Positions 36,337 to 40,176 of a DNA stretch of 64,000 nt are shown here, in pieces. Within the stretch, counting starts at the first letter, position 1. The number at the start of each line of letters is the position of its first letter. The position numbers and the translations under genes are program-made. Source of the stretch: Datnioides undecimradiatus (taxonomy: Eukaryota > Chordata > Actinopteri > Lobotiformes > Datnioididae). The stretch lies in NCBI GenBank assembly GCA_008933995.1, contig WARS01000007.1, positions 6,382,923 to 6,446,922 of the forward strand, in the 5' to 3' direction. The notes beneath the pieces are model-generated. The model made no database searches. It was given only the letters and a program-made list of their open reading frames with translations, and was not told the DNA's origin.

Positions 36337-39300
36337 ATGGCATCCGTGTCGTCCAGCTCCTGCCTCAGCAAGGTTGTGCGCCAACACTACCTGAGCCTGC
36401 CTCAGGGAAAGAAGTGCCAGGTAACCTACATCTGGATTGATGGCACTGGAGAGGGCCTTCGCAACAAGACCCGAACCCTGGACAGGGAGCCCCAAAGTAT
36501 AGACGGTGACTATCGGTTGTTTTAAGCTGAATATTTCAGTTGACTATGTAGTGAGTCAGTTTTCATCCTTATTTTCTACAAGTCTATGTATCGAAGCATT
36601 TGACGGGTTCTTTGAGGGATGTTTTCTGAAGAATGAAGGAATAACTCAGATGTTAATATGAGATTAAGCAGTTGGGAGGTTTACTCTTTGACCATCATAG
36701 AAACAGAGGACAGGACATTGCACACAACACAAGGTGGAAGAGCATCCTGGTGCAAGCTCAGTGACATGCAGGCTGAGCTGGAGAACAAATATTTGTTGTA
36801 GTTCCATCTTCATAGCTGCAGATTAAGAGTTTACATTCAACATGAGAACTTTCAGGAATGTCAGTCATGTAATCGTTCCTGCCCTTTAACTGTCTGTACT
36901 TGATGTGTTTGTTTCATTCTCGTTTCTGATAATCAAGCCTTCACAATGTCCAGGAATTTGTGACATCAGAGCTACAATAGTCTGTGAGAGCGTTACATTT
37001 CACGTGGCACAGGCTGGCACAAAGCCAGTTCTGATGTATATTTAGAAATCATGTTTTGTTGATGTTCTTTTTCCGGTAAATGTATCATTCCAGATATTCC
37101 TGAGTGGAACTTTGACGGCTCGAGCACATACCAGGCCAAAGGCTCTGATAGTGACATGTATCTCATCCCAGTCTGCATGTTCAAGGATCCGTTCACCCTT
37201 GACCCCAACAAGCTCGTCCTCTGTGAAGTCCTCAAAAGTGACCGCTCACCTGCAGGTACACTATTCACATTTCTGTTTATGTTTTATTGCAATAATACCA
37301 ATGAGTAATGTCAGATCATTTGAGCTGCATGGGTTTTTATCTTCACTGTCTAGAAACTAACCATCGAGCAAGCTGCAACAAAGTGATGGAGGCGGTTAAA
37401 GACCACCACATGTGGTTTGGCATGGAGCAGGAGTACACGCTCTTAGAAATGGATGGACGTCCTTTTAGCTGGCCCACCAATGGATTCCCTGCACCACAAG
37501 GTAAATCAGCAACAATTTTGCCCTCCTCTCAGTCCACCTCATTCCTGTGGGCCCTACTGTAAAAAGGTGTAAACAGATGTAATAAGTAATCTAAATCAAG
37601 AGCTGCAGTGTATGTATAGTTATGCCTGTTTTATCAACATTTTTCTCACTAAACAAGTCTTTCTGGTTTATTATAATCAGGGGCGGGCCATGCATTTCAC
37701 ACCTAGGCCTTCAGTGGTGTCCTACCTGAATTAACCCACCTCATAATACCATCATTGTGAAATTAGAAATTATCAATATTATACAGAAATGCAGTATAAC
37801 AGGGCGTCGCATCACAGACAAGTATTGTCATTGAATACCTTCAGCCATTGTCAATTGAAAAAACAACAAATGAATCAAGAGGAATCTATTTTAGTTTATT
37901 TTTATCTTGTGAAATTCACTAAAGATACGGTTTGCTAGCTCTGACGAGTGCACGCTGTGACCATCCAATCAAAGGACGTGAAAATGCCGACATTACCGTG
38001 CGCCTGCTAGATGGCCCCAGTGTCGCCAACTCGAAATCTGATTGGTTAAAGCAACAGTTTCATTGCCATTTATTTTAAGTTACAGACGCCCGCACTGATG
38101 ATTCTGAAGGCCTCAAGGCAGATTTCTTTGACCCTAGCAACACATGATGTCTGAAATATGATTGGATAAAAGCTCTAAAATATAAACACACTACTGCAAG
38201 CAACCAAGAGAAAAGCCATTATATGAAGATAATAGATTATCCCGATAGGAATCATTAATACACATTCATGGAAAAACATATTGAAACGTAAGTCAATGAT
38301 CTTTAGATTTAGGCCATCAGAGAAGGCCTTGCTGGCCCTGATGGCCCACCACTGATTATAATTGATGTTTATGATTAATGTTTCTGGCACAGGTTTGTAT
38401 TTATTTCTTCGTGACAAGCGTCCTTTCATGTCGTCCACTTAAAGGGCCTTATTACTGTGGGGTGGGATCACAAAATGCTTATGGACGTGACATTATGGAG
38501 TGCCACTACAAGGCCTGCCTCTATGCAGGGGTCAAAATCTGTGGCACTAATGCTGAAGTGATGCCATCTCAGGCAAGTACCGCCGTTATTCTTACACACA
38601 ATGGATTAAAAATTCTTTCACATTCAACTTTAAACGTTTCTAAATGTTTTTTAATATCCCCACTATAATCTGATTTTTTCTCTTCCCCATTGTTTCTTCA
38701 AATTTCAGTGGGAGTTCCAGGTGGGTCCTTGTGAGGGCATTGAGATTGGCGACCATCTGTGGGTTGCACGCTTCCTGCTGCATCGTGTGTGTGAAGACTT
38801 TGGGGTCAATGCAACACTGGACCCCAAACCAATGACAGGGAACTGGAACGGGGCTGGTTGCCACACAAATGTCAGCACCAGTCAGATGAGGGAAGAGGGA
38901 GGAATGCGGTGAGTAAATGTTTCATTTGAAATTTGTTACAATCATTTAAAATAAAAAGAATAACAACAAGAAGAATAATTTTAAAATGAATCCGCACAAG
39001 TGATATATTAATAACACATATCAAATATAATACAGCTTATACATTCAACCCTGTCCAAAGTATATCCAGAAATAAAAGTCTCTGAAAAATATTGTTTTTT
39101 GCTCAATTGATCACTTGTCTCCCTAAAGGATGAAGCATTCAGAACTTTGATTATTATTTTCAGATTCAGTGAGATAGACACTCAGTGACATGAAGAAAAC
39201 CTCAAAGTGTAATACGCTTACGCAGTTGAGTTTCTGTTAATTCCTTAAATGGGCAGTTATCATTATTTCCACATTATATTGCATGAATGTGAAATGTTTC

Positions 39301-39435: not shown

Positions 39436-39498
<63 letters not shown>

Positions 39499-39905
39499 CT
39501 GTTCTCTTTATTTTAGCAGAAATCAATCATCCAGACAGTCACTGCAGCAACGCTTTTTTATATATCTCAGTTGTCTGTATTTTCCTTGATTCAGATACAT
39601 ACTCAACCAAGCCATCCAGAAGCTGAGCAAAACATGCCGAAAGCACATCCGTACGACCCACATGGAGGGCAGGACAACACATGCCCCACAGGTCTCCACG
39701 AAACTCCAGCATCAACGACTTTCTTTCAAGTGGCCAACAGAGGGCCAGCATCCGCATCCTCGGCCAGGCATTGAAAAGAGGCTACTTCGAGGATCACTCT
39801 GCAGCAAACTGTGATCCAGAGTGTTGTGACAAACATTACCTAAAACCTGTCTTCTTGATTTGGAAGAAGAGGAGAGCAAGGGGTTTAAAGGCAGCAGCTA
39901 TGTAG
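36337..39905 (+). CDS. glul: Glutamine synthetase paralogue with a broken last exon
   Basis: ATP-dependent glutamate-ammonia ligase: condenses glutamate and ammonia to glutamine. Coding exons 36337-36505, 37094-37255, 37354-37500, 38445-38572, 38709-38908 join in phase to 268 codons with no disruption. Family motifs: [44 protein letters not shown] (metal/substrate glutamates at about 135 and 137), [50 protein letters not shown] (His about 254). The ATG has A at -3 and G at +4; an acceptor at 36324 implies an upstream 5' UTR exon. The last exon (from 39595) starts in frame, then needs at least three frame changes to follow the family and in its own frame stops at 39812-39814 (TGA). The fourth intron begins with GC rather than GT. 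It is a third-type (glulc-like) copy or a decaying gene; family membership is certain, functionality is not. Confidence 0.88.
37678..38354. mobile_element. Non-autonomous hAT element (MITE) in a glul intron
   Basis: The left end reads CAGGGGCGGGCCAT. The right end, ATGGCCCACCACTG, is its inverted repeat (CAGTGGTGGGCCAT), matching at 12 of 14 bases. A perfect 8-bp target duplication, ATTATAAT, flanks the element at 37670-37677 and 38355-38362. An 8-bp duplication and CAG-starting ends are typical of the hAT superfamily. Subterminal GGCCTT/AAGGCC words recur. The 677 bases contain no transposase ORF. It lies inside the intron between the third and fourth coding exons of glul, ending 90 bases before the acceptor. 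Confidence 0.85.
39440..39494 (+). repeat. (TA)n microsatellite before the last glul exon
   Basis: About 55 bases of pure TA, ending 100 bases before the last glul exon. Such tracts can extrude cruciforms and are error-prone in replication and in sequencing. Confidence 0.95.
39595..39905 (+). pseudogene. Frame-disrupted last exon of glul
   Basis: The acceptor (GATTCAG at 39588-39594) and the first 16 or so codons ([12 protein letters not shown]) are in frame with the upstream exons. Family sequence then continues in a second frame from about 39652 ([16 protein letters not shown]), in a third from about 39705 (SSINDF, then ASIRIL, RGYFED, NCDP) and returns to the first from about 39848 ([10 protein letters not shown]). 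Compared with the family, codons are also lost after QDNT and around SSG-VANRG. The conserved catalytic arginine/glutamate region of the C-terminal half therefore cannot be made from this sequence as written. The alternatives are true decay or local sequence error. Confidence 0.8.
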
Positions 39906-40170: not shown

Positions 40171-40176
40171 AATAAA
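40171..40176 (+). terminator. Candidate glul polyadenylation signal
   Basis: AATAAA in the context GTGAAATAAAGAC, about 270 bases past the end of glul homology and followed by a TGTGTGTTTT-containing GU-rich stretch at 40206-40215. This is a convincing 3' end layout and suggests the locus is, or recently was, transcribed. Confidence 0.55.

Follow-up and report, generated by a model that had tools for sequence, protein, structure and literature searches.

A third, putatively glulc-like glutamine synthetase gene with a damaged last exon in Datnioides undecimradiatus

Layout and neighbours of the glutamine synthetase gene

The window, by which we mean the whole 64,000-nucleotide stretch of Datnioides undecimradiatus DNA that was analysed (assembly GCA_008933995.1, contig WARS01000007.1), carries a type II glutamine synthetase (GS) gene. 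It shares its exon layout with vertebrate GLUL and zebrafish glula, glulb, and glulc, although the frame of its last exon is broken and conserved arginines have been lost (Table 1). Exons 1 to 5 sum to 806 nt, translate without a stop, and hold 268 complete GS codons, so the five undisrupted exons of the original prediction were borne out. Pfam searches with these exons matched PF03951 over nearly its whole length and PF00120 only at profile positions 10 to 157 of 344, corresponding to the beta-grasp domain and the initial stretch of the catalytic domain. All 11 substrate- or metal-site positions that were checked in these exons are kept. Acceptors are AG and donors are GT except in intron 4, whose donor (38573 to 38578) is GC in the window gene and GT in both of the paralogues described below. 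Exon 1 measures 169 nt versus 166 nt in the two paralogues, i.e., one extra codon, and this in-frame difference lies upstream of the aligned part of exons 1 to 5.

Table 1. Features of the window GS gene (positions within the window)
Feature	Position	Strand	Remarks
Coding exon 1	36337..36505	+	open, start ATG
Coding exon 2	37094..37255	+	open
Coding exon 3	37354..37500	+	open
hAT-type-MITE-like insertion (class presumed), intron 3	37678..38354	.	677 bases, similar terminal inverted repeats
Coding exon 4	38445..38572	+	open; GC donor 3' of exon (CAG/GCAAGT)
Coding exon 5	38709..38908	+	open
(TA)27 tract, intron 5	39441..39494	.	perfect
Last exon (exon 6) remnant	39595..39905	+	acceptor kept; GS-like to ~39874; several frame-changing indels
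AATAAA, candidate poly(A) signal for the GS gene	40171..40176	+

The insertion in intron 3, putatively a hAT-type MITE, lies between the two copies of an exactly duplicated 8-mer (ATTATAAT; 37670-37677 and 38355-38362); the same intron is 107 bases long in one of the paralogues (that on contig C312). Exon 6 starts ~100 nt downstream of the TA tract, whose suggested causal role in the damage is conjectural. Rfam returned no RNA element in the window at gathering score. Gene content and intron layout are consistent with those of a bony fish.

We searched the whole genome (a 581-Mb assembly of 497 contigs) with the protein encoded by exons 1 to 5. At least 15 matches were obtained, five each on the window contig, C312, and C476, and the matches listed belong to three GS genes, with no fourth among them. 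The C312 and C476 genes, which lie on contigs other than that of the window, are intact, with six open exons each; residue identity of exons 1 to 5 to the two intact genes is 192/266 (72%) and 199/266 (75%). Pfam domains were matched in 6 of 10 neighbouring pieces, comprising three GDA1/CD39 nucleotidase, two Janus/Ocnus, and one MAM-domain pieces. We take the Janus/Ocnus gene for PHPT1. An exon at ~42.1 kb, which gave no Pfam match, is presumably ARRDC1-like. Given these neighbours and the 72% and 75% identities, we call the window gene glulc-like; for zebrafish Glulc, one article reports identities of 70.2% to Glula and 70.8% to Glulb (PMC11546858). In a tree of exons 1 to 5 with seven rows, including three distant GS copies, the four vertebrate copies do not resolve.

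Damage to the last exon

The acceptor before exon 6 (39595) is good. When exon 6 was compared with the intact C312 and C476 genes by frame-aware local alignment at frameshift penalties of 6, 9, 12, and 15, the alignments contained 13, 7, 5, and 3 frame-changing steps relative to C312 and 13, 7, 5, and 5 relative to C476. The corresponding counts of separate indel events were 14, 10, 9, and 8 (C312) and 14, 10, 9, and 9 (C476). In contrast, the same aligner found no frame change in exons 1 to 5 against either paralogue, and none between C312 and C476 in the last exon. The concentration of damage in the last exon (at least three frame changes versus none in exons 1 to 5) had thus been correctly anticipated, and somewhat understated. 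Frame changes had been placed near 39651, near 39705, and between 39815 and 39842; all three were recovered at penalties 6 to 12, whereas at penalty 15 against C312, the changes left were those near 39650, 39745, and 39819, the one near 39705 being absorbed. Further changes appeared near 39729 and 39745 (penalties 6 to 12). Codons had also been predicted to be lost around 39720-39755. In-frame losses do exist, but that placement was rough, as we found them near 39687, 39758, and 39800 and, at penalty 15, also at 39729.

Of the 13 gaps in one nucleotide alignment, 10 were deletions in the window gene, and exon 6 losses measured about 3, 4, and 6-9 nt. Upstream of the first frameshift, 8 of 17 residues are the same as in C312. 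None of the three single-frame readings of exon 6 gave a GS match in Pfam, and a match to RPN13_C in these frames was dismissed as chance (19.7 bits against a family cutoff of 39.3). The window gene combines disabling mutations in the coding frame, retained introns, and intact paralogues elsewhere in the genome, as unprocessed duplicate pseudogenes do.

The damage to exon 6 is more than indels, since universal residues have changed too. We defined universal positions as those identical in C312, C476, the vertebrate GS chain of entry 2uu7 (presumably dog), and four of the five distant GS copies that were found on viral contigs (L019, L021, L022, and L023). One of 73 such positions has changed in exons 1 to 5 (F256V), whereas in exon 6 the residue is altered or missing at 7 or 8 of 29, the count varying with the penalty (Fisher P, 5e-4 to 1.4e-4). 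When substitutions alone were counted, the contrast was 3/24 versus 1/73 (P = 0.046). The universal residues replaced in exon 6 include Arg299, Arg340, and Arg341. According to PMC4737493, Arg340 contacts phosphate, R341C is linked to congenital glutamine deficiency, and Glu305, Arg340, and Arg341 have roles in GS catalysis or its stability. In exon 6, shifted frames still reveal the codons for Glu305, Arg319, Arg324, Tyr336, and Glu338, so its decay is incomplete; the C-terminal part with the Glu305 loop, Arg319, Arg324, and Arg340 is found in no single frame. The broken C-terminal frame and the lost arginines support the original view that this sequence would yield no active synthetase.

Positions fixed in the three vertebrate sequences alone gave a weaker contrast (46/222 changed in exons 1 to 5 versus 24-27 of 73-74 in exon 6; P, 0.04 to 0.008 across four alignments). 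First and second codon positions differed from C476 at 43/174 in exon 6 and 78/532 in exons 1 to 5 (P = 0.004), whereas the two intact genes differ from each other at 9/174 and 34/532, without such a contrast. Overall, 35% of aligned bases in exon 6 differ from C476, compared with 27% in exons 1 to 5. Changes with a negative BLOSUM score made up 28% in exons 1 to 5 versus 58% expected and 42% in exon 6 versus 55% expected, the expectation being random single-base nonsynonymous changes with stops counted. The conservative changes in exons 1 to 5 speak against a plain loss, although they mostly reflect a long functional past.

Could the gene really be intact, and could the apparent damage to exon 6, close to the TA tract, stem from a local error in the consensus or the assembly? 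A tract 100 nt before the exon could reduce read coverage, the preponderance of deletions among the gaps would suit such an error, and the nearest coding controls lie ~690 nt upstream (exon 5) and ~2.2 kb downstream (the ARRDC1-like exon). However, losses of these sizes together with the replacement of R299, R340, and R341 are atypical of read error, and exons 1 to 5 and both other GS genes are clean in the same assembly. Since universal arginines are replaced in addition to the frame shifts, and since two other GS genes are intact, we consider an assembly error unlikely on the strength of the sequence.

It is highly improbable that another ending yields a functional GS, either through an alternative intact last exon or through an alternative acceptor. 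Such a last exon, a possibility raised in the original prediction, was found neither in the window, where the next best match to a GS-like last exon had an E value of 2.3, nor among the scored genome candidates: a genome search with the C476 last-exon protein at E values up to 1 returned C476 and C312 only (two matches, four scored candidates). The window's own exon 6 was not reported by that search because it is too broken. Shifted acceptors within exon 6 would hold a frame open to 39905, but those acceptors fail a simple acceptor test and skip needed residues, and no acceptor within exon 6 that passes the test restores GS.

Predicted products and signals in intron 5

Continuing the exon 5 frame yields a predicted product of 341 residues that ends at a TGA (39812-39814). 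If the gene is transcribed and spliced at the kept sites, nonsense-mediated decay would be expected to spare the mRNA, since its frame ends within the last exon and, as an established rule, a stop there does not trigger decay. The resulting protein would lack the C-terminal portion of the active site and, as spliced, should be enzymatically inactive. If intron 5 were instead retained, the frame would close at a stop right behind exon 5, giving a product of 269 residues.

Intron 5 of the window gene holds two AATAAA motifs (38950-39076), the first of them 42 nt downstream of exon 5; they may be chance occurrences in AT-rich DNA. On visual inspection, intron 5 of each paralogue, which is short, contains no AATAAA; an ATTAAA is present in that of C312.

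Concentration of the damage and its possible explanations

Were frameshifts equally likely anywhere in the 1,089 coding nt, all of them would lie in the final 283 nt with a probability of 0.018 for three frameshifts and 0.0003 for six, although these probabilities are optimistic because exon 6 was tested after the original prediction had pointed at it. If exons 1 to 5 had the frameshift rate seen in exon 6, their 806 nt would stay open with a probability of about 1e-4 or less, and loss at a uniform rate therefore fits poorly. The concentration in exon 6 points either to constraint on exons 1 to 5 or to a cause confined to exon 6. Recent gene conversion was rejected as the reason for the integrity of exons 1 to 5: no long identical run is shared with the paralogues (at most 23 nt for C312 and 19 nt for C476), and identity to them did not exceed 86% in any 99-nt stretch tested.

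We also considered published decay rates. A study on a cavefish genus gives frameshifts as 0.0143 and premature stops as 0.031 of the substitution rate (PMC7826195). From the 35% versus 27% divergence, the neutral excess in exon 6 can be put only very roughly, the paralogues being old, at 0.05-0.15. At divergences of 0.05, 0.10, and 0.15, these rates predict that exons 1 to 5 would be without a stop or frameshift with probabilities of 0.16, 0.03, and 0.004. The original argument that uniform decay would not concentrate damage in one exon was consequently too strong, given the values of 0.16 to 0.03 at 0.05 to 0.10. The same rates lead to an expectation of only 0.2-0.4 frameshifts in 283 nt at divergences of 0.05-0.10, and to probabilities of at least three frameshifts in exon 6 of 0.001, 0.008, and 0.02 at 0.05, 0.10, and 0.15. 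Under these rates, the surprise is the number of frameshifts in exon 6 rather than the clean exons 1 to 5. Since the probability of three or more is 0.001-0.008, a plain loss requires that a local indel-prone episode be assumed. Taken together, exon 6 is relaxed, whereas the intactness of exons 1 to 5 is compatible with either recent loss or constraint.

We tentatively favour, at a probability of roughly 0.48, the reading that the window GS gene is a redundant third paralogue, apparently glulc-like, whose enzyme function was lost by decay of exon 6. Several deletions shift the frame of this exon and conserved arginines are gone; the loss would be fairly young, with exons 1 to 5 not yet hit, and exon 6 would have passed through a local indel-rich episode. 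This would most likely be a rather commonplace duplicate-gene loss in which the damage is oddly uneven in its distribution. Like the fish duplicate or unitary pseudogenes represented by cavefish vision genes in PMC7826195, the window gene has frameshifts, lost essential residues, and retained introns, and working enzyme copies exist elsewhere. It differs from them in that all of its visible damage lies in one exon and its frameshifts exceed the rates given there.

Zebrafish offers some grounds for a dispensable third copy. In two articles, glulc is described as being without clear in situ signal (PMC11546858) and as being confined to nostril cells and hardly expressed later (PMC6130883). Such weak or restricted expression makes dispensability believable, whereas the induction of glulc by hyperammonaemia that is cited in the former article (PMC11546858) argues against full dispensability in zebrafish. 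Among the listed titles and abstracts of CC-licensed PMC articles on fish GS/glul genes and pseudogenes, none concerned a glulc loss. If the window gene is plainly lost, a further example would be added of a fish losing a redundant gene for ammonia handling while retaining two others.

More doubtful is the idea that exons 1 to 5 are still selected as a truncated, noncatalytic GS subunit of 341 or 269 residues while exon 6 decays freely. Exons 1 to 5 without stop or frameshift and with 1/73 universal positions changed, next to an exon 6 with at least three frameshifts and 7-8/29 lost, would fit such selection. The stop reached right after exon 5 when intron 5 is retained, with an AATAAA 42 nt on, would suit it as well, but the frame also terminates right behind exon 5 in both intact paralogues, and chance alone would supply about one AATAAA in an intron this long and AT-rich (a rough estimate). 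The active sites of the GS decamer form between subunits (PMC4737493 and PMC7764910), and a truncated product could be incorporated into decamers of the intact enzymes or poison them. However, a GS chain minus its last ~100 residues may not fold, exon 6 has diverged upstream of its first frameshift too (8/17 residues as in C312), and the prior odds are low. The excess of indels would also go unexplained: exon 6 is indel-rich whether the loss was young or a truncated product was selected, and the results do not discriminate between such selection and a recent loss that involved an indel-prone episode at this exon. The specific form in which the paralogue has turned into a noncatalytic truncated subunit under selection on exons 1 to 5, for example, as a regulator that joins active decamers, strikes us as unlikely. 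If exons 1 to 5 were truly selected, the gene would be a case of truncation giving rise to a vertebrate GS pseudoenzyme and would open a route to study how decameric metabolic enzymes gain inactive subunits.

Lengsin is a GS-like noncatalytic protein. It would provide a parallel if the truncated product is made, as a case of the GS fold reused without synthesis activity. On contig C24 (L001 1462-2670), we observed a 402-residue open frame that matches the GS catalytic domain profile at positions 2-334 of 344 and that is probably lengsin. Whereas this frame covers nearly the whole domain, the window gene loses the C-terminal quarter.
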